35,026 bases of DNA from Candidatus Epulonipiscium sp. (GTDB taxonomy: Bacteria; Bacillota; Clostridia; Lachnospirales; Defluviitaleaceae), in assembly GCA_012518815.1 (NCBI GenBank), contig JAAYRK010000087.1, positions 1 through 35,026 of the forward strand, in the 5' to 3' direction. This document shows, piece after piece, positions 3,688 to 21,719 of the stretch. Every line of letters begins with the position of its first letter. Position 1 is the first letter of the stretch. The notes below the pieces were generated by a model, which ran no database searches, was not told where the DNA came from, and saw only the letters and a program-made list of their open reading frames with translations. The translations under genes and the position numbers were made by a program.

Positions 3688-4326
3688 TTAATCCTCAAAA
3701 GATTTTATAATATCGTATTTAATGAAAAGTTTTTTAGAAGAAATGCGTATATCTGGTGAATTATAAATATTACCAATATGCTTTTCTTCACTATCCTTAG
3801 TCCAATAAAGTTCATTATCCACTATCTTTGAACTAATATTATTTCGAATAATAAATTCGTCTGCACGTACAAAAATTTCTTCATTTAGTTTAAAGGCATA
3901 ATACTCTTTAAAAGTAAAGCATTCACTTTCATCAATTTGTATGAGCGTACCAACACAAGCAGTATTATCGTCTTTATTTTTTCCCTCTTGCCCCGAAGTA
4001 TTATCTTTTGTTTGATTATCATTTTCTGTTAATGTTGTGTCTTGAATAGATGCAACACTATTTTCACCTTTATCATTAATATTTACTGTTTTTGTTTCAC
4101 TATCATATACAACTTCTTTATCAAGTATTTCTGCAATGGCTCTAATTGGTACGTAAACTGTTCCATTATAAGTAATTGCACTAGTAGACACAGGTTGATT
4201 ATTAACTTTGATATTTACCTCATTAAGTAATACATTAATAGTCTTAGCAAATATTGGAGTAACTGATATAGTAAACCCTATGATTATACCTATAATTAAT
4301 TGCTTATAATTTTTAATATTATTCAT
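3688..4326 (-). CDS. copper amine oxidase N-terminal-domain (stalk-type) surface protein
   Basis: 212 residues from the chosen ATG, which has GGAGG nine bases upstream. A longer frame from a TTG at 4344 overlaps that SD and was rejected. One hydrophobic segment (about residues 8-28) acts as a signal or anchor. A copper_amine_oxidase_N1-type domain follows (about 30-85): VNNQPV, an aromatic TVYVPIRAIAE stretch and VVYDSETKTVNI. This domain is common on clostridial surface proteins and is not itself an oxidase. After a polar, low-complexity linker rich in Asn, Thr and Asp (about 88-125) comes a C-terminal region of about 85 residues that may be a second, diverged copy of the same fold. The function is not known; a cell-surface or cell-wall role is inferred. 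Confidence 0.75.
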   Translation of the reverse strand: MNNIKNYKQLIIGIIIGFTISVTPIFAKTINVLLNEVNIKVNNQPVSTSAITYNGTVYVPIRAIAEILDKEVVYDSETKTVNINDKGENSVASIQDTTLTENDNQTKDNTSGQEGKNKDDNTACVGTLIQIDESECFTFKEYYAFKLNEEIFVRADEFIIRNNISSKIVDNELYWTKDSEEKHIGNIYNSPDIRISSKKLFIKYDIIKSFED

Positions 4327-4775
4327 CAAACAACGCCTCCACAATATTGTTAATATTTTATTATTATATTATCATAATAGAAAAAATTTTTAAATATAGT
4401 TTTGGCAATAATTAGAACATCAGATAGTATTATACTTTTCTGTATGCATTTCAGCTCAATTTTATTTATTCATATCATCTTAAGTTTTTTTTATTTCATC
4501 GATAAAGGAACAAACTTTTCTTTACTTACCTTGTAAAAATTCCTATTATAATATTTTAATCTCATCATGTGTTAGTTGAATATATTCAGTGGAGCAAATT
4601 CCAGCATCTAAAAGCAAAGCAAAAAAAGAAAAAATGTATAACAAATAAAAAACACCTCCAATTGTAATTTATATTGATATACCAACTACAATTAAAGGTG
4701 TTTCATAATTAAACTCATTTGAGTTATTAAAAAAAATTACTTATGCTTTAAAGACTTTATTTTACTGGCTTTTGA
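4327..4775. other. 449-base intergenic region between the stalk-type protein and yebC
   Basis: Very AT-rich. It holds the yebC terminator (4650-4703), a small palindrome AACTCAAATGAGTT at about 4711-4724, and TATAAT-like sequences near 4360-4375 that probably serve the stalk-type gene, though no convincing -35 was found. No coding frame was recognised. Confidence 0.5.
4650..4703 (-). terminator. intrinsic terminator of yebC
   Basis: Arms AAACACCT and AATTGTA pair with their complements around a two-base mismatch (17-base arms), followed on the minus strand by TTTTTTATTTG. It lies about 75 bases beyond the yebC stop. Confidence 0.75.
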
Positions 4776-5510
4776 TTATTCTTCATCAGATTCCCAGTTA
4801 TGATATACTTCTTGTACATCATCATCGTCTTCAAGTAATTCTAACATCTTATTAAATTTCTTAATATCTTCCTCACTAGTTAGTTTCGTTGTTGTTTGAG
4901 GAATCATAGCTACTTCTGCAGAAATCATCTCTACTCCTGCTTTTTCAATAGCTTCTCTAACTGCTGAAAAATCTTCAGGACTAGTTAAAATTTCATAACC
5001 TTCTTCTTCTGCTATAAAATCTTCTGCTCCTGCATCAAGGGCCAACATCATTAATTCATCTTCATCTATTTTATCACTTTTTTCAATCATGATTTGTCCT
5101 TTTTTATCAAACATAAAAGAAACACAACCTGTTGTCCCTAAATTTCCTCCGCCTTTTGTAAAAGCATGACGAATATTGGCAGCAGTACGATTTTTATTGT
5201 CAGTTAACACATCTACTATAACAGCTACTCCGCTTGGGCCATAGCCTTCATAGGTGATAGATTCATAGCTAGATGCATCTCCTTCACCTGCAGCTTTTTT
5301 TATGCTTCTTTCTATAGTATCATTAGGCATGTTGTTTGATTTTGCTTTTGCAATTGCATCACGAAGCCTTGCATTGTTCTCAGGATCTGGACCTCCTTCT
5401 TTTACAGCTACTGCAATTTCTCTACCTAGCTTTGTAAATATTTTTCCTTTTTGAGCGTCTGCTTTTGCTTTTTTATGCTTAATATTCGCAAACTTAGAAT
5501 GACCTGCCAT
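4776..5510 (-). CDS. yebC: YebC/PmpR/TACO1-family protein
   Basis: 244 residues, the normal length. The N-terminus [16 protein letters not shown] is the family hallmark. Other conserved stretches are [14 protein letters not shown], the [10 protein letters not shown] segment and [14 protein letters not shown]. The family was long annotated as a DNA-binding regulator; recent work on bacterial YebC and mitochondrial TACO1 ties it to relief of ribosome stalling, notably at proline runs. Which role applies here is not decided by the sequence. It follows the HAD phosphatase gene by 35 bases with an AGGAGG SD, so the two are probably co-transcribed from a promoter near 6283. Confidence 0.96.
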
Positions 5511-14179: not shown

Positions 14180-14204
14180 AAGGGACATCAATTTAATGTC
14201 CCTT
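14180..14204. terminator. bidirectional terminator between the Spo0E-like gene and the pdaB-like gene
   Basis: Perfect nine-base arms AAGGGACAT and ATGTCCCTT. T-rich sequence follows on the minus strand (TTAGTTTTTAA) and weakly on the plus strand. Confidence 0.75.
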
Positions 14205-14212
14205 TACATACA

Positions 14213-15016
14213 TTATTTATTTTTAGCCTGCTTATTATCTTTTATTGGTTTTTGTCGTCCTTCATGGTCCATATAATAATTTTCCTTTAATATAAGCTGG
14301 GAAATAGGTACAATTTCATAACCTTGCTCTTTTAAGCCAGTTATAATGGTATCTAGAGCATCCTTAGTATATTTTGCATTGTTATGAAACAATACTATAG
14401 ATCCATTTCCTAAATGTTTATGGTTAAGTACTTGCTTTATAAGAGGTTCAACTCCATATTCCTTCCAATCAAGAGAATCGACATCCCACTGCACTGTATA
14501 ATAATTACATTCTTCTGCCGCTTCTATAACTGTATTGTTATATTCCCCAAATGGTGGTCTAAAAAGATTCATTTCTATGCCTGTCAGTTTTTTTACTTCC
14601 TCATGAGCTGCCATAATTTCCTTTATATTTGCTTCTTTTGATAACTGCCCCATGTGGGGATGTTTGTTGGAGTGATTCCCTATATCATGCCCTGCTGCAG
14701 CAATCTTTTTTACTTCCTCAGGGTATTTTCTTACCCAATCCCCAACCAAAAAGAAAGTAGTCTTTACGCCATGTTTATCCAGTATCGCAAGTAAATCATC
14801 TGTATCATCAGCGCCCCAAGCCGCATCAAAGCTTATTGCAATTTTTTTCTCAGGTGTTTCTACGCAATATATAGGAAGCTTCCTCTGCTGTTTACCGGAA
14901 ACTGTATTAAAGACTTCCGTTACATAAGGCCTTGAAAGACTCATACAAAAAATTATCAACAAAAGAGCCCAAACGACTTTGTTAATTCCTTTCAAATTTA
15001 TAACATATATTTTCAT
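14213..15016 (-). CDS. PdaB-type polysaccharide deacetylase
   Basis: 267 residues. An N-terminal membrane segment (about 11-29) anchors an extracytoplasmic NodB domain (about 57-250). Motif 1 reads SFDAAWG (D64), the form used by PdaB/YlxY-type sporulation deacetylases rather than TFDDG. Motif 2 is H115-S-N-K-H119, motif 3 RPPFGEYN (153-160), motif 4 DVDSLDW and motif 5 LFHN (209-212). Such enzymes remove acetyl groups from cell-wall or cortex sugars during sporulation. It is the last gene of the apbE operon, 57 bases after the polyprenyl synthase gene. Its SD, GAGGGGGGA, lies inside a strong hairpin (15021-15056), so translation may be controlled separately from its neighbours. Confidence 0.88.
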   Translation of the reverse strand: MKIYVINLKGINKVVWALLLIIFCMSLSRPYVTEVFNTVSGKQQRKLPIYCVETPEKKIAISFDAAWGADDTDDLLAILDKHGVKTTFFLVGDWVRKYPEEVKKIAAAGHDIGNHSNKHPHMGQLSKEANIKEIMAAHEEVKKLTGIEMNLFRPPFGEYNNTVIEAAEECNYYTVQWDVDSLDWKEYGVEPLIKQVLNHKHLGNGSIVLFHNNAKYTKDALDTIITGLKEQGYEIVPISQLILKENYYMDHEGRQKPIKDNKQAKNK

Positions 15017-15020
15017 AGGA

Positions 15021-15056
15021 ATCCCCCCTCTTGATATTACTATTCAAAGGGGGGAT
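15021..15056 (-). promoter_or_regulatory. hairpin that buries the SD of the pdaB-like gene
   Basis: In the mRNA, AUCCCCCC pairs perfectly with GGGGGGAU, extended by UUGA/UCAA across a small internal loop. The six Gs are the SD, six bases before the AUG. No T-run follows, so it is not a terminator. Confidence 0.7.
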
Positions 15057-15073
15057 GGCCATATTCTTATTAT

Positions 15074-16030
15074 TTATAATAATTTAAGCAAATCCATAGA
15101 AATATTTTTGTATTTATTATTCGAAAGTTTTTCTATGGTAACTATAGCTTTTTTTATAAATTTTTCTTTTAATTTTTTCGTTTTTTCTAATGCCTTAGTT
15201 TGCCTTACCAATTGTATGACTTTTGATATTTCTTCGTTTGTTATATCAGCTTTTTTATATAGTAGATTTTTAATTTGGGGACATACTTTCTTATCCTCTA
15301 AGGCATATAATAAAGGAAGGGTATATATTCCTTGCCTGATATCATTGCCAATGGGTTTTCCTTCTATTTCTTCGCTTGAAACATAATCTAAAAGATCATC
15401 ATAAATTTGAAATGCCATTCCAAAATAAGCAGCAAATTTCCCTAAGGTATTTAAAGTTTCTCTTTTGCATTTACTTTCATAGGCTCCTGTTAAAATACTC
15501 ATTATAAATAATACAGCTGTTTTTCTATAAATTCTTTTTAAATAATCTAAAACTGTCACATCCATATTATATTTTATTTCATATTGGTCTATTTCACCTT
15601 CACAAATTGTCTTAAAGCCATGAGCAATTTTATTTAAATGTTCATAATGCATTTTATCTGACAATATGGTAAATGCTTTGGTAAACAGATAGTCTCCTAC
15701 ATAAACAGCCATGTCTTCTCCCCATTTTTCCTGAACTGTTACCCTACCTCTTCTTAATTTAGAGTCATCAATTATATCGTCATGAACAAGAGTAGCTGTA
15801 TGAAGAAGTTCCATAGAGGCTGCTAAGGGAATAATCTTACTTTCATCATAGTTGCCAAACTTAGCTCCTAAAATTACAAAGGCTGGCCTTAATCTTTTAC
15901 CACCTGCTTCTATTAATTCCAAACAAATATCTGTTAGTAACTTTTTCCTGGAAGGAATGGCTTCTTTCATATAGTTTTCTACTTTTATTAGCTCATTTTG
16001 TATCTCAGGATATGCTTGCCATAAGCCCAT
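15074..16030 (-). CDS. polyprenyl diphosphate synthase (HepT/DmkB-like)
   Basis: 318 residues, a complete trans-isoprenyl diphosphate synthase. It adds isopentenyl units to an allylic diphosphate to make the side chain of (demethyl)menaquinone or a similar lipid. GGKRLRP (43-49) binds substrate. The first Asp-rich motif is D84-D-I-I-D88 and the second is Y210-D-D-L-L-D215. Residues before the first motif are small (HTATLV), which favours a long chain such as C35. It follows the EetB-like gene by 16 bases. In the Listeria EET locus the matching gene is dmkB. No prenyltransferase (dmkA/menA) is visible in the window, so the acceptor ring is unknown. Confidence 0.92.
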   Translation of the reverse strand: MGLWQAYPEIQNELIKVENYMKEAIPSRKKLLTDICLELIEAGGKRLRPAFVILGAKFGNYDESKIIPLAASMELLHTATLVHDDIIDDSKLRRGRVTVQEKWGEDMAVYVGDYLFTKAFTILSDKMHYEHLNKIAHGFKTICEGEIDQYEIKYNMDVTVLDYLKRIYRKTAVLFIMSILTGAYESKCKRETLNTLGKFAAYFGMAFQIYDDLLDYVSSEEIEGKPIGNDIRQGIYTLPLLYALEDKKVCPQIKNLLYKKADITNEEISKVIQLVRQTKALEKTKKLKEKFIKKAIVTIEKLSNNKYKNISMDLLKLL

Positions 16031-16046
16031 TATTAATCGTCCCTTC

Positions 16047-16553
16047 TTAGTTCTTTAGCCAATTTTGTGCTTTAAAATGATTATGGAGAAAATTAACAGC
16101 TACTCCAACAAAAAAACCTGTTACTACAGCTGAAACAAGAAGAACTGGTAAATAAATATAAATTTTAAAGTCTTGTATATATATTGCGGCTACAAAAAGC
16201 TGCCCTATGTTATGAAATATTGCACCACAAATACTTATAGAAGATATTCCTATAGCATCTTTAAAATACTTATATAATAAAATCATTACAATATTGCTAA
16301 GAAGTCCCCCTGTAATACTAAATAAAAAAGTAGAAAGACTTCCTCCATACATTGAACTTATTATAGTTCTTAATATAACTACTATTAGTGTTTCCTTCCA
16401 ACCTAATATTAACAAAGTAAATAAAGAAATAATATTGGCTAGTCCCAATTTTATTCCTGGAAAAAGAACTGGGATTTGACCTTCAATAATATGTATTATA
16501 ACTGCAATCCCTACCAATAAAGATAAAAAAACCATTTTTTTAGTCTTATTCAT
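16047..16553 (-). CDS. Gx-transporter family membrane protein (heptaprenyl diphosphate synthase component I/EetB-like)
   Basis: 168 residues, almost all hydrophobic, with about five membrane helices. It matches the COG4769-type family: FPGIKLGLANIISLFTLLILG near the N-terminus, a GGSLSTFLFSITGGLLSN loop, and FHNIGQLFVAA. The family is often annotated as component I of heptaprenyl diphosphate synthase because of its position, but it looks like an S-component-type membrane protein. In Listeria the corresponding gene, eetB, is needed for extracellular electron transfer. It lies between the EetA-like and DmkB-like genes with gaps of 18 and 16 bases, so all belong to one operon. Confidence 0.88.
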   Translation of the reverse strand: MNKTKKMVFLSLLVGIAVIIHIIEGQIPVLFPGIKLGLANIISLFTLLILGWKETLIVVILRTIISSMYGGSLSTFLFSITGGLLSNIVMILLYKYFKDAIGISSISICGAIFHNIGQLFVAAIYIQDFKIYIYLPVLLVSAVVTGFFVGVAVNFLHNHFKAQNWLKN

Positions 16554-16571
16554 TATATCACCATTCTGAGA

Positions 16572-16955
16572 TTAATATGAAAGTTCATCAAGATTTTCTT
16601 TCTCACCTTCTATTTTTATTAGAATATTATGAGGCATACATACTGCTATATCTCCTGGTTTAGACAACCATCCTGTATTAACACAAACCAAATCAGGACA
16701 ATTGGCCTCACTAAAACGAATTCTTCCATTCTCAATTCTAACCCTGTTATAATGCCATTCTTCATCATGTATAAGCCATTCCATAGGCTCCTTGATACTA
16801 TCTAAGTCAAATTCTTCTATGACTTCTTGATTTTTAATAACCTTAGCTTTTAACGCTTTTCCTTTATTAGCATTTCTATATATTAAAACAAATAAAGAAC
16901 TAACTACTAACAAAGAAAGTACAATTATTATAACTATCTTGTCGCCCTTTTTCAT
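16572..16955 (-). CDS. NusG domain II protein, membrane-anchored (EetA-like)
   Basis: 127 residues. One membrane helix (about 7-26) is followed by an extracytoplasmic NusG_II domain (about 35-125). It has the conserved cysteine pattern C86-P-D-L-V-C91 and C106-M-P-H109-N. Such proteins travel with Gx-transporter, ApbE and FMN-binding genes. In the Listeria EET locus the equivalent is eetA, thought to help pass electrons from membrane quinol to surface flavoprotein; this is an assignment by family and context. The three cysteines and one histidine could bind a metal or carry redox chemistry, which is speculative. The gap to apbE is 11 bases. Confidence 0.88.
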   Translation of the reverse strand: MKKGDKIVIIIVLSLLVVSSLFVLIYRNANKGKALKAKVIKNQEVIEEFDLDSIKEPMEWLIHDEEWHYNRVRIENGRIRFSEANCPDLVCVNTGWLSKPGDIAVCMPHNILIKIEGEKENLDELSY

Positions 16956-16966
16956 CTTATTTCCCC

Positions 16967-18025
16967 TTAATTATTTTTTTCAATTAAATCAAATTTTGGA
17001 TTAGTTAATTTAAAACTATCTTTAAGTCCTGCTGTAATATATACTTTATTATCATCTGTTATTATGACTGCCTCTACATTTTCCATCTTTTCTATTAAAC
17101 TTAATCCTTTTTCTAATCCCATTACATATAAAGATGTTGATAGGGCATCTGCATCAATAGAACTATCTGATACAATAGTACTACTAATGATTCCTTCTTC
17201 TGCAGGATAACCTGTTTTAGGATTCATAATATGATGATATTTCTTGCCATCTTCAATAAAATACCTTTCATAATTACCAGAGGTCACCACAGCCCTATCT
17301 TTTATTTCTATAATAGCTAGATGACTACCCCTTTCATCTAAGGGATTTTGAATTCCTATTCTCCATGGACTTCCATCAAGCTTAGTTCCTATAGTAACTA
17401 CATTCCCACCTAAATTAACAAAGGCAGTATCAATCCCATTATTTGTTAATATTCTTTTCACTTCATCTCCAGCATAACCCTTTGCAATTGCTCCTAAATC
17501 TATAGCCTGACCTTTATTTCTAAGCTTAACAGACAAATTTTTTTCATCTAATAATAAATCTTCATAATTAATTAAACTAAGAAGGGAATCTATTTCTTCC
17601 TTCTTTGGAATTCTTGCATCTTTTGTTCCTATCCCCCACAGCTTTACAAGAGGCTCTACAGTAAGATCAAAAGCTCCTTCTGATAGTTTACTATACTCAC
17701 TGGATTTCTGTATAACAAAAAAAGTGTCAGGACTAACATTAACAAAATCTATCCCTGCATTTTGATTAATGCTGATTACTTCACTTTTTTCTTTGTTTAT
17801 AGTCATTTTTTCTTCAATTTCCCTAATCCGCCATATTGATTCATCTATAGCTTTTTTGGCTTTTTTACTATCTTCATCATATATTTTAAATTCAATGATA
17901 GTACCAAGGGCAAAAATTTCTTCTTGTATTATATTTTCATTTTCTTTATTGCCTTTATTATTGCAAGATAAAAGTGTAGTTATTATAATTATAAGTATAG
18001 TCACAAAAATCATGCTTTTTTTCAT
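16967..18025 (-). CDS. apbE: FAD:protein FMN transferase, ApbE lipoprotein (FmnB-like)
   Basis: 352 residues. The signal peptide ends in the lipobox LLSC (C21), placing the enzyme outside the membrane. It moves FMN from FAD to a Thr or Ser of partner proteins using Mg2+. Family marks are ALGT (39-42), DLGAIAKGYAGD (177-188), LGGN (205-208), SGNYER (249-254), HIMNPKTGYP (265-274) and the metal-binding D291-A-D-A-L-S-T. It is the first gene of an operon with the EetA-, EetB-, DmkB- and PdaB-like genes. The FMN-binding lipoprotein encoded just upstream (18201-18650) carries the expected target motif and is the obvious substrate. A promoter (18060-18089) and a dyad over the start of transcription suggest regulation. 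Confidence 0.95.
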   Translation of the reverse strand: MKKSMIFVTILIIIITTLLSCNNKGNKENENIIQEEIFALGTIIEFKIYDEDSKKAKKAIDESIWRIREIEEKMTINKEKSEVISINQNAGIDFVNVSPDTFFVIQKSSEYSKLSEGAFDLTVEPLVKLWGIGTKDARIPKKEEIDSLLSLINYEDLLLDEKNLSVKLRNKGQAIDLGAIAKGYAGDEVKRILTNNGIDTAFVNLGGNVVTIGTKLDGSPWRIGIQNPLDERGSHLAIIEIKDRAVVTSGNYERYFIEDGKKYHHIMNPKTGYPAEEGIISSTIVSDSSIDADALSTSLYVMGLEKGLSLIEKMENVEAVIITDDNKVYITAGLKDSFKLTNPKFDLIEKNN

Positions 18026-18038
18026 TTTTTCACCAACT

Positions 18039-18060
18039 TATGTAAGTATGTTATTACATA
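18039..18060 (-). repeat. inverted repeat at the apbE transcription start (possible operator)
   Basis: Perfect seven-base arms TATGTAA and TTACATA with an eight-base spacer, directly downstream of the -10 element. The sequence does not match Fnr or Rex consensus sites that I know. Confidence 0.45.
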
Positions 18061-18089
18061 TTATATCGTTATTACTCAATAAATATCAA
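18060..18089 (-). promoter_or_regulatory. promoter of the apbE operon
   Basis: TTGATA, 18-base spacer, perfect TATAAT on the minus strand, 35 bases before the apbE ATG and downstream of the terminator at 18155-18181. It shows that apbE is transcribed apart from the FMN-binding lipoprotein gene. Confidence 0.65.
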
Positions 18090-18154
18090 TTATAATCATA
18101 TCTATATTTATAAGTCCTTAAAATATTTTAATATAAAAAACCTAACTTAAAATA

Positions 18155-18181
18155 AATTCCCCAAGCTTAACTTGGGGAATT
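18155..18181 (-). terminator. intrinsic terminator of the FMN-binding lipoprotein gene
   Basis: Perfect 11-base arms AATTCCCCAAG and CTTGGGGAATT with a five-base loop, followed by TTATTTTAAG on the minus strand. Confidence 0.8.
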
Positions 18182-18200
18182 AAATAAAACTTTAATTTAA

Positions 18201-18650
18201 TTATTTTGCTGTTTCTAATGCTTTATTAGCTATTGCTTTGAAACTGTTTGATGTGCTAGTTGCACCAGTAACAGTATCAACTGAATCTACAGCTTGTTTT
18301 TCAACAAGAGCTTCTTCAAGCTGAGGGATTGCTTCTGCTGGTCCAATTCCACTTTTGTCTTTCATATTTTGGTTATATTCTTCATTAGTCTCTTTAGAGT
18401 CACCATTTTCATTTACTTCATCATAATCAACTGTAGTAATTTTACCATCTTTAACTTCAATACTTATGACTGGCTTCCAGCCATGATCGTCAAAATCGTC
18501 TCCTTCAGCTGTATAAGTACCGTCTTTATAGGATACTTCTGTAGTTGTACCATCATTATCATTAGTTCCAGATTTATTTCCTGTATTACATCCTCCTAAT
18601 ACACTAAGAGATAAAGCTAAAACTAGACATAATACTATAATTTTTTTCAT
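18201..18650 (-). CDS. FMN-binding domain lipoprotein (PplA-like, single domain)
   Basis: 149 residues. The signal peptide ends in the lipobox VLGGC (C21), and a short Gly/Asn/Asp/Thr-rich linker (22-40) lifts one FMN_bind domain (about 40-149) off the membrane. The domain starts YKDGTYTAEG and ends with D125-T-V-T-G-A-T131-S, which fits the ApbE flavinylation motif; T131 is the predicted attachment point for FMN. In Listeria the surface flavoprotein PplA has two such domains; this one has only one. It should act as the outermost electron carrier, passing electrons to metals, free flavins or another acceptor. It has its own TTGACA promoter (18718-18746) and terminator and is probably made in excess over the operon. 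Confidence 0.92.
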   Translation of the reverse strand: MKKIIVLCLVLALSLSVLGGCNTGNKSGTNDNDGTTTEVSYKDGTYTAEGDDFDDHGWKPVISIEVKDGKITTVDYDEVNENGDSKETNEEYNQNMKDKSGIGPAEAIPQLEEALVEKQAVDSVDTVTGATSTSNSFKAIANKALETAK

Positions 18651-18717
18651 TATAAGCCTCCTCTTTTACTATAAAAATTTAATTTCTTACTAAAAGCATA
18701 AAAATTGATTACAGCAC

Positions 18718-18746
18718 ATTCTACTATAGGAAACTTTTTTTGTCAA
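18718..18746 (-). promoter_or_regulatory. strong promoter of the FMN-binding lipoprotein gene
   Basis: Perfect -35 TTGACA, 17-base spacer, TAGAAT on the minus strand, about 70 bases before the ATG. Confidence 0.75.
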
Positions 18747-18862
18747 AGGTCATATCACTCCATTTAGGAAAAATTTGAATGATTTATATTGTTTTTCTTT
18801 TGTATCCTTAGTATTCCTCTCAATTTTATTGGTTTAAATGGTATGCAATTAATAATAATTAT

Positions 18863-18870
18863 GATATACT
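18863..18870 (+). promoter_or_regulatory. extended -10 element for the Ndh2-like gene
   Basis: GATATACT, the end of a TGATATACT extended -10, about 100 bases before the ATG. The -35 position holds only a 3/6 match. Confidence 0.35.
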
Positions 18871-18969
18871 CACATTAATACTAATTTAAAAATATAATTT
18901 TTGATATGAATATCTTTATGATTAATATGTGTCAAAATGTTAATAATATACACTAAGGAGGCAAATTAT

Positions 18970-20730
18970 ATGAAGAAAAATAGTAAAAAAGTATTTATAC
19001 TTGGAGCTGGATATGGCGGAATTCAAGCAGCTCTTACATTACAAAAGAAAAAAAAGAAATCTGATAATATAGAGATTTATATCATAGATAAAAATCCATT
19101 CCACACTCTACTTACTGAACTCCATGAAGTAGCAGCTAATCGTATTGACGATAAAGGAGTAGTAGTATACTTAAAAGATATTTTCAAATATACTGATGTT
19201 AATATCATACAAGACTATATTACAAAAATAGACTTTGAAAAGCAGGAATTAATATCTGAAAAAGATAACTATGCCTACGATTATCTTATTATGGGAATCG
19301 GCAGTGAACCACAATTTTATGGAATAGAAGGTTTAGAAGAAAATGGCCTTACTCTTTGGTCTTATAAAGACGCCCTTAAAATAAAAGACCATATTATATC
19401 TATGTTTGATAAGGCTGCAAAAGAAAAGGATCCCGATATTAGAAAATCATATCTTACTTTTGCAGTAGTCGGCGGAGGATTTACTGGAACGGAAATGGTT
19501 GGTGAACTAGCTTTATGGGTTAAAGACTTAGCCGAAATTTATAATATTGATTTAAAAGAGATAAGACTTATGCTCATTGAAGCTCTACCTAAGATTCTTT
19601 CAATTATAGATGATTCTCTTATAAGTAAAGCTGTAAAATATCTTAAAAATAAATTATCTGTTGAGATTCTTACCGATAGCCCAATTACAAAAGTAAATAA
19701 AGATTCCTTTGTAATTAATAATAAAGAAACTATTAAATCTCATACTCTTATTTGGACTGGTGGTGTACAAGCTAATAACTGCCTTATAGAATTTGATTTA
19801 GAAAAAGGGAAAGGTCAAAGAGTCTGTGTAGATGAATATACAAAAACCCATTATGAAAATGTCTTTGCTATTGGAGATTTTGCATTATTTATGACAGAAG
19901 ATAATAAAGCCCTACCTGCTTTAGTTGAAACAGCCCTTGAAACAGGAAAATATGCAGCCAAAAATGTTTTAAACCTTGTACGTAATAAGGAATTAGAAAA
20001 AGCAGAACCTAAATTACACGGTATAATGGTTTCTGTAGGTAAAAACTATGCTGTTGCAGATATTATGGGAATTAAAATGTCAGGCTTACCTGCATTATTT
20101 ATGAAGCATATGGTTAATATCCATTATCTTTTTGGAATTGGTGGATTTGAGTTAATAGGAAAATACTTAAAAAATGAATTTTGGGGTGTTAAACATAAAA
20201 GAGGTATCATCCACAGACATATGGATAAGCTTTCTCCTACCTTTTTACTTGTGATTTTAAGACTTTATCTTGGTTATATGTGGCTAATGTCTGGTATAGA
20301 TAAGATAAACAATGACTGGCTTAAATATAACATGCTTGCTGGAAGTAATGCAGATGCAACTACTGGAGCATCCATTATGCAGCTTGTTTCCGAACACACC
20401 CCTGGATGGTATGCATGGATTGTAGATACTTTAATTATCCCAAATGCTATGCTCTTCCAAAAGCTTGTAATCATAACGGAAATTGGTCTTGGTTTAGCAT
20501 TTATTACAGGTACTTTTACATTCTTAGCTGCTCTTGTATCTATAGCTATGAATATTAACTTCTTACTATCTACAGGCCTTAATGATTTATGGTTCTTAAT
20601 TTCTTCCATACCTATGTTAGGTGGTGCCGGAAGGGCCTTTGGAGTGGATCATTATCTCATGCCTTATCTGATGAGACAATGGAGACATTTCGTTAGAAAA
20701 AGAAAAATCAAAATTAATCTATGGAAATAA
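18970..20730 (+). CDS. type II NADH dehydrogenase with C-terminal membrane domain (Ndh2-like)
   Basis: 586 residues from the ATG with AAGGAGG upstream; a longer frame from 18937 overlaps that SD. The first 400 residues are a two-dinucleotide-fold flavoprotein: FAD-binding GAGYGG (12-17), NADH-binding GGGFTG (168-173) and FAD-contacting FAIGD (299-303). It should move electrons from NADH to a membrane quinone without pumping protons. The C-terminal part (about 420-570) adds roughly four hydrophobic segments with RLYLGYMWLMSGIDKI, typical of DoxX-like domains. Ordinary NDH-2 (about 400 residues) lacks this extension, while the EET-specific Ndh2 of Listeria has a membrane extension of this sort. 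The gene points away from the other EET-like genes. A terminator at 20734-20757 closes the transcript. Confidence 0.9.
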   Translation: MKKNSKKVFILGAGYGGIQAALTLQKKKKKSDNIEIYIIDKNPFHTLLTELHEVAANRIDDKGVVVYLKDIFKYTDVNIIQDYITKIDFEKQELISEKDNYAYDYLIMGIGSEPQFYGIEGLEENGLTLWSYKDALKIKDHIISMFDKAAKEKDPDIRKSYLTFAVVGGGFTGTEMVGELALWVKDLAEIYNIDLKEIRLMLIEALPKILSIIDDSLISKAVKYLKNKLSVEILTDSPITKVNKDSFVINNKETIKSHTLIWTGGVQANNCLIEFDLEKGKGQRVCVDEYTKTHYENVFAIGDFALFMTEDNKALPALVETALETGKYAAKNVLNLVRNKELEKAEPKLHGIMVSVGKNYAVADIMGIKMSGLPALFMKHMVNIHYLFGIGGFELIGKYLKNEFWGVKHKRGIIHRHMDKLSPTFLLVILRLYLGYMWLMSGIDKINNDWLKYNMLAGSNADATTGASIMQLVSEHTPGWYAWIVDTLIIPNAMLFQKLVIITEIGLGLAFITGTFTFLAALVSIAMNINFLLSTGLNDLWFLISSIPMLGGAGRAFGVDHYLMPYLMRQWRHFVRKRKIKINLWK

Positions 20731-20839: not shown

Positions 20840-21301
20840 ATGATTAACTTAAATATTTTAGATGTCAAAAAAGCTATGGATGAGCTTTTAAAAGGAAACC
20901 TTTTTGATGAGTTCGAAGTAAGAATTACTGAAGTACATACCTTTACAAAATTCCATATTGATGGCAGTTTAAATAAAGCTTTTCTAAATGATGAAGAAAA
21001 AAAATTATATAATCGGAATTTTGTCTTGTGGAAAGAAGTAAAACCTCATGTTTTTAATATTATCAAAGGAAAAAGGCCTCCTACATATTTAAAAATTGTA
21101 TTTTCTGCAGGTAAGGATATAGTTGTTGATTTTCCTTCTGAAATATCAGCTCTTTTTATTAATTTAATATATTCACAAGGAAATTTTTCCTGCACTAGTG
21201 GTATAGCATTAAATAGTTTTTCTTTAAATAAAGAAATTGAATATGAATGGGATAACTATGTTCACAATTTCTTTAAGAAAGCTAATATTTATGTAGAATA
21301 A
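20840..21301 (+). CDS. DUF5721-like protein of unknown function
   Basis: 153 residues with SD AGGAG. The sequence starts INLNILDVKKAMDELLKGNLFDEFEV, then has ITEVHTFTKFHIDGSLNK and WKEVKPHVFNIIKGKRPPTYLKIVF. This order (a helix, FxIDG, then WxExKPxxFxxIKGKRxP) is what I recall of the clostridial DUF5721 family, not checked by search. No signal peptide or membrane helix is seen, so it should be cytoplasmic. Only two bases separate its stop from that of the CBS gene on the other strand, with no terminator between, so the two transcripts probably overlap. No function can be given. Confidence 0.75.
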   Translation: MINLNILDVKKAMDELLKGNLFDEFEVRITEVHTFTKFHIDGSLNKAFLNDEEKKLYNRNFVLWKEVKPHVFNIIKGKRPPTYLKIVFSAGKDIVVDFPSEISALFINLIYSQGNFSCTSGIALNSFSLNKEIEYEWDNYVHNFFKKANIYVE

Positions 21302-21303
21302 GT

Positions 21304-21687
21304 TTATCTTTCTTTTTCAGACAGAAAATAATCTACAACATTTTCTATAGAAACCAGGCCAATAACCCTGCCTTGCTCTACTACAGGCATTCCTATGATA
21401 TTGTGCTGTCTTAACCTTTTAGCTGCTTCTCTTATTGATTCATCAGCCATAGCAGTTATAACGTCTTTACTCATGGCCCAATCTACAGGGCAAGCTTCGT
21501 AATGGCCTGTTGTACTTAAAAATCTATATATATCGGCTTTTACAATAAAACCTACAAGCATCTTATTTTCATCAACTACAGGAAGACCATTAACCTTTTT
21601 AGTCTCCATTATTGATAAGGTTTTTTCTAAAGTATCTTGAGGCATCACCATATAAAAAGTATCACTCATAATATCTTTAACTTTCAT
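21304..21687 (-). CDS. CBS-domain pair protein
   Basis: 127 residues from the ATG whose SD is GAGGTGG; a GTG three codons earlier lies inside the SD and was rejected. The protein is a tandem pair of CBS domains: VKDIMSDTFYMVMPQDTLEK to VGFIVKADIY, then CPVDWAMSKDVITAMADESIREAAKRL to VIGLVSIENVVDYFL. There is no attached enzyme or DNA-binding domain. CBS pairs bind adenosine nucleotides such as AMP, ATP or c-di-AMP and act as sensors; the partner is unknown. The cysteine insertion HYEACPVDWAM between the domains is common in clostridial members. It faces the DUF5721-like gene and diverges from htpG. Confidence 0.93.
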   Translation of the reverse strand: MKVKDIMSDTFYMVMPQDTLEKTLSIMETKKVNGLPVVDENKMLVGFIVKADIYRFLSTTGHYEACPVDWAMSKDVITAMADESIREAAKRLRQHNIIGMPVVEQGRVIGLVSIENVVDYFLSEKER

Positions 21688-21719
21688 ATCAACCACCTCT
21701 TTTAATTAATTTCACTTTC

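Follow-up and report, generated by a model that had tools for sequence, protein, structure and literature searches.

The seven genes at positions 14213–20730 of the window, the whole 35,026-nucleotide stretch of DNA analyzed here (contig G000:C39 of the source genome), very probably form a locus for electron export of the flavin-based extracellular electron transfer (FLEET) type, joined to a general supply for protein flavinylation. The gene set, the motifs, homology, gene order, and co-occurrence described below point to this reading. A FLEET-like locus had been proposed in the initial annotation, and the proposal is supported by Listeria homologues for every gene, by the presence of DmkA in the genome, and by the co-occurrence of Ndh2 and DmkA; electron export itself is what we infer from these sequence data. 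Against it we count that the PplA-like protein has one domain and scores below the NCBIfam cut-off, that EetA is found throughout the order, and that no menB was found.

According to the proposed mechanism, Ndh2 would oxidize cytosolic NADH and pass the electrons to a membrane naphthoquinone, with the polyprenyl tail made by DmkB and joined to the head group by DmkA, encoded on another contig; the head group would probably be DHNA acquired from neighbours. From the quinone, electrons would reach FMN covalently bound on the surface PplA-like lipoprotein and then iron, free flavins, or other acceptors, a discharge that would regenerate NAD+ for fermentation. EetB, together with EcfA, EcfA′, and the sole EcfT of the genome, would export the FAD that ApbE/FmnB uses to flavinylate PplA, and RnfG and RnfD, parts of the Rnf complex encoded elsewhere, would most likely be flavinylated through the same FAD export and ApbE. 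Quinone uptake and the dual use of ApbE and of EcfT are predicted features of the scheme.

With this locus, a complete Listeria-type kit for electron export is found in a fermenting family of Clostridia, the Defluviitaleaceae; the locus adds a member to a known system and does not define a system of a new kind. A literature search found no paper reporting such a kit in this family.

Gene Content and Conservation of the Locus

The source genome comprises 2.19 Mb in 117 contigs and is about 92% complete, and absences in it are weak for this reason. Pfam and NCBIfam profile matches confirmed all seven annotated genes in place, each in its expected family. Six of them lie on the minus strand. The gene for the PplA-like lipoprotein (18201–18650) encodes one FMN-binding domain (PF04205, FMN_bind) and one flavinylation motif, DTVTGAT at residue 125, which bears out the matching motif noted earlier. 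It is followed by fmnB/apbE (16967–18025), encoding a lipoprotein FAD:protein FMN transferase (PF02424, 318 bits; 39% identity to Listeria FmnB along its length). Both proteins carry a lipobox. The best match of ApbE among solved structures was the FAD:protein FMN transferase 7esa (E = 2.7e-79), which we take to be Listeria FmnB. Next come eetA (16572–16955), for a one-helix membrane protein with a NusG domain II (PF07009; predicted helix at residues 7–25; 34% identity to Listeria EetA over 85 amino acids), and eetB (16047–16553), for an ECF-S type membrane protein (PF07456; 37% identity to Listeria EetB). The last two genes are dmkB (15074–16030), encoding a polyprenyl diphosphate synthase of the HepT/GerC3 type (PF00348, TIGR02748; 43% identity to Listeria DmkB), and, at the end of the operon, a gene for a PdaB-like polysaccharide deacetylase (14213–15016; PF01522), whose score for TIGR02764, 227.5 bits, is slightly below the cut-off of 237.4. 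The seventh gene, ndh2 (18937–20730, plus strand), encodes a type II NADH dehydrogenase with a DoxX/DoxD-like C-terminal membrane domain (PF07992, PF07681, PF04173).

The organism had been described as a probable clostridium; it is not a Clostridium, and its closest named Ndh2 relatives, from ‘Candidatus Epulonipiscium’ MAGs (84 and 76% identity) and Defluviitalea phaphyphila Alg1 (76%), identify it as a bacterium of the Defluviitaleaceae, order Lachnospirales. D. phaphyphila (loci L081 and L034) provides a cultured relative with the locus. The gene order is conserved in the genomes of the family wherever the region is readable, and when 72,556 records were searched blind at the DNA level, the hits were limited to Listeria pplA and a single Fusobacterium record; on these grounds, the cluster is not due to chance. 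The pdaB-like gene adjoins the cluster in the family genomes but not in L040 and L076, which are more distant loci, and its product is probably a bystander.

On the other side of the locus, a DUF5721 gene (20840–21301) is kept next to ndh2 in all family genomes read, and a gene for a protein with two CBS domains (21304–21696) is kept near ndh2 in those read except L034, where it was not seen.

Transcription Units

The genes from fmnB to dmkB are 11–18 bases apart, pdaB follows after 57 bases, and ndh2 and pplA diverge from an interval of 286 bases. The proposed division into two minus-strand transcripts and a divergent ndh2 is backed by two terminator-like hairpins found on the minus strand by a consensus scan, one ending the pplA transcript between pplA and apbE (18155–18181; 12 pairs followed by a T-rich tail) and one 3′ of pdaB (14180–14204). 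The same type of scan gave a promoter-like site upstream of fmnB (18060–18089, minus strand) with 11 of 12 matches, sites of this kind being no commoner than in shuffled sequences. The promoter-like site of pplA (18718–18746, minus strand) reads TTGACA-17-TAGAAT, and its TTTGACA is unchanged across an alignment of seven relatives. We also considered a common regulator site in the divergent promoter and rejected it, as conservation covers only the −35 region of pplA and part of the ndh2 leader. An Rfam scan of the window gave no match.

Comparison with Known Electron-Export Loci

The reference was the locus of Listeria monocytogenes (L102, NZ_LR134400.1; the record is filed as a plasmid, yet has ribosomal genes), in which fmnA, a dmkA match, fmnB, and pplA lie on one strand and ndh2, eetA, eetB, and dmkB on the other. 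Each of ndh2, pplA, fmnB, eetA, eetB, and dmkB has a one-to-one homologue in the window. The arrangement had been called different from that of Listeria, which holds for the position of eetA-eetB-dmkB (after ndh2 in Listeria, after fmnB here) and for the pdaB-like gene that ends the operon here, but the divergent core fmnB-pplA | ndh2 is identical. The core recurs as ndh2 | pplA-fmnB in L041, from another member of the order, with dmkA behind ndh2. Moreover, fmnA and dmkA belong to the locus in Listeria, whereas here dmkA is unlinked and no dedicated FmnA was found.

The extended Ndh2 shares 35% identity with that of Listeria over residues 17–585, the C-terminal membrane part included, and the DoxX match is present in both. 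The AQxAxQ motif of the quinone site in solved NDH-2 structures is replaced by VExA in the window Ndh2; the change is real, but it is common to Listeria Ndh2, and we therefore rejected it as a novelty and regard it as a family trait.

The PplA-like protein matches the NCBIfam PplA model with E = 7e-36, but at 123.9 bits against a cut-off of 325. PplA has two FMN domains in Listeria and one here, and this single domain is 47% and 52% identical to the two Listeria repeats. Within the family, the number of domains varies: the protein is of one-domain size in the window, L033, L034, and L035, and about twice as long in L036, L038, and L039 (279–294 amino acids), with two FMN-binding domains in L036.

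The chain could instead feed a specific extracellular reductase or a defence against oxygen or peroxide at low redox potential, rather than minerals or electrodes, which we consider improbable. Electron transfer in Gram-positive bacteria is known to have flavinylated extracellular reductases as partners (Light 2019, as cited in PMC13134045), and a second FMN-binding protein is encoded beside a nitroreductase-like gene on contig C96; however, the family genomes show no reductase gene within the cluster or next to it, and the lipoprotein belongs to the PplA type. The protein in question (L055, G000:C96, 5987–6388) has 134 amino acids, a membrane anchor, and the motif DAVSGAT, and its gene lies between TetR-like and nitroreductase-like genes.

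Quinone Supply

The initial annotation listed dmkA as missing, which is correct for the window and incorrect for the genome: a DHNA polyprenyltransferase, DmkA, is encoded on another contig (G000:C28, 7201–8154; NF004752, 371 bits, cut-off 289). The protein shares 54% identity with the DmkA encoded next to ndh2 in L041 and matches the dmkA position of the Listeria locus at 47% and 41%. In the latter record, dmkA (3913–4817) appears as two separate matching pieces and has no gene-table entry, as though the strain had an interrupted copy. A similar layout is known from the EET operon of the Paenibacillus isolate Paeni-Cedars (PMC10373932), where the other genes also form one operon and dmkA lies elsewhere in the genome; that operon differs in containing ecfA1-ecfA2-ecfT.

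In a survey of the order covering 196 genomes, 34 had extended Ndh2 (E of 1e-30 or better) and 34 had DmkA (E of 1e-20 or better), with both present in 29. The Fisher p value for this co-occurrence is 1.7e-24, and 1e-18 with the family itself left out, the p values serving only as a guide since the genomes are related. Another Ndh2 relative, 47–48% identical, occurs in the Ruminiclostridium MAG MnB_11 (Mn-Ruminiclostridium, L086), whose name suggests a manganese enrichment.

The profile search gave no match to menB in the genome (about 92% complete); menB was above the cut-off in none of the 34 Ndh2 genomes, and 2 of the 196 genomes of the order pass. Because of this absence, the cells probably scavenge the head group of the quinone as outside DHNA, by analogy with Lactiplantibacillus, and the locus predicts reliance on quinone from neighbours; without outside DHNA, the quinone pool may be absent. 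Listeria differs in having its own DHNA synthesis. L. plantarum has a functioning FLEET that depends on exogenous DHNA (PMC9888254, PMC10746273). The predicted DHNA requirement and the export genes, including dmkA and dmkB, are shared with that system, as judged from its published description rather than by sequence, although there dmkA lies inside the locus.

The lack of menB in these genomes also suits a variant of the scheme in which there is no quinone pool, Ndh2 directly reduces free DHNA-like shuttles or flavins, and DmkA and DmkB are dispensable. Mutants of L. plantarum in dmkA and dmkB still produce current (PMC9888254), and DmkA is undetectable in G013 and G014, the two whose Ndh2 is next closest, one of them being listed as 100% complete. 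All eight family genomes contain DmkA, which speaks against this variant; we regard it as rather unlikely. In the genome listed as complete, G014 (L009 and L076), ndh2, pplA, fmnB, eetAB, and dmkB are all present.

Flavin Supply and Its Probable Relation to Rnf

The function of EetB as an FAD-export subunit is assigned by homology with the substrate subunit of the FAD exporter (PMC9973259). When the EetB profile was compared with solved structures, the sole match (E = 2.3e-5) was 3p5n, a protein for riboflavin uptake. EetA-type proteins were found in 161 of the 196 Lachnospirales genomes, including all 34 with Ndh2. By itself, EetAB therefore does not indicate electron export and was rejected as proof of it; deletion of eetA in Listeria gave no electron-export phenotype (PMC9973259). 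The argument for export rests on Ndh2, PplA, and DmkA, and matches to EetA or EetB alone in Clostridia should not be taken as electron export. In genomes lacking Ndh2, the neighbours of eetA-eetB vary and are sometimes rnf genes (L064) or apbE (L065). A pairing of standalone EetAB with a multi-FMN flavoprotein was also considered and rejected, the long neighbour being amidase-like when its sequence was read by eye.

A complete rnfCDGEAB operon is located on contig C73, where the 12 kb read contain no apbE. RnfG and RnfD carry the flavinylation motifs ESISGAT and DGVTTAT, so that ApbE and EetB occur in a genome with flavinylation sites in both. The window ApbE is the sole one found in this genome (about 92% complete), and because the full rnf operon lies elsewhere, it probably serves Rnf too. 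If the missing 8% holds no second ApbE, the window enzyme would modify PplA, RnfG, RnfD, and the protein on C96, the last being a possible third client. The association of EetB with Rnf flavinylation in Clostridia is described (PMC9973259), with eetB and rnf colocalized in 572 genomes; EetB likewise occurs here with ApbE and a putative flavin supply to Rnf, but the operon in the window also adjoins ndh2 and pplA.

These data raise the question of whether apbE-eetA-eetB-dmkB is mainly a supply for Rnf flavinylation, adjacent to ndh2 and pplA by an accident of lineage and forming no export unit. The wide spread of EetA relative to Ndh2 (161 against 34 genomes), the position of EetAB beside rnf or apbE in some genomes lacking Ndh2, the colocalization in Clostridia, and the location of the only ApbE here with rnf elsewhere are all in line with it. 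Nevertheless, we find this improbable, since DmkA tracks Ndh2, the unit is conserved across the family, and a dedicated PplA-like lipoprotein is encoded divergently from ndh2, as in Listeria. To our knowledge, DmkB has no role in Rnf flavinylation.

The absence of fmnA, noted earlier, was reproduced: a dedicated FmnA was not found in the genome (about 92% complete), and the one ECF-T detected belongs to an ecfA-ecfA′-ecfT operon among ribosomal genes. FmnA is absent from some published loci, and we treated it as an accessory of FLEET, outside its definition. A RibU-like gene lies downstream of the only FMN riboswitch of the genome. Tentatively, and with slightly less than even confidence, we suggest that two electron systems draw on a common flavinylation line, in which a single ApbE would modify both the ion-pumping Rnf and the surface PplA, and a single ECF-T would import riboflavin with RibU and export FAD with EetB. 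This would differ from Listeria, where FAD export needs the dedicated ECF-T FmnA (PMC9973259). Exactly one ECF-T match was found in 11 of the 34 Ndh2 genomes, 6 of which are at least 95% complete.
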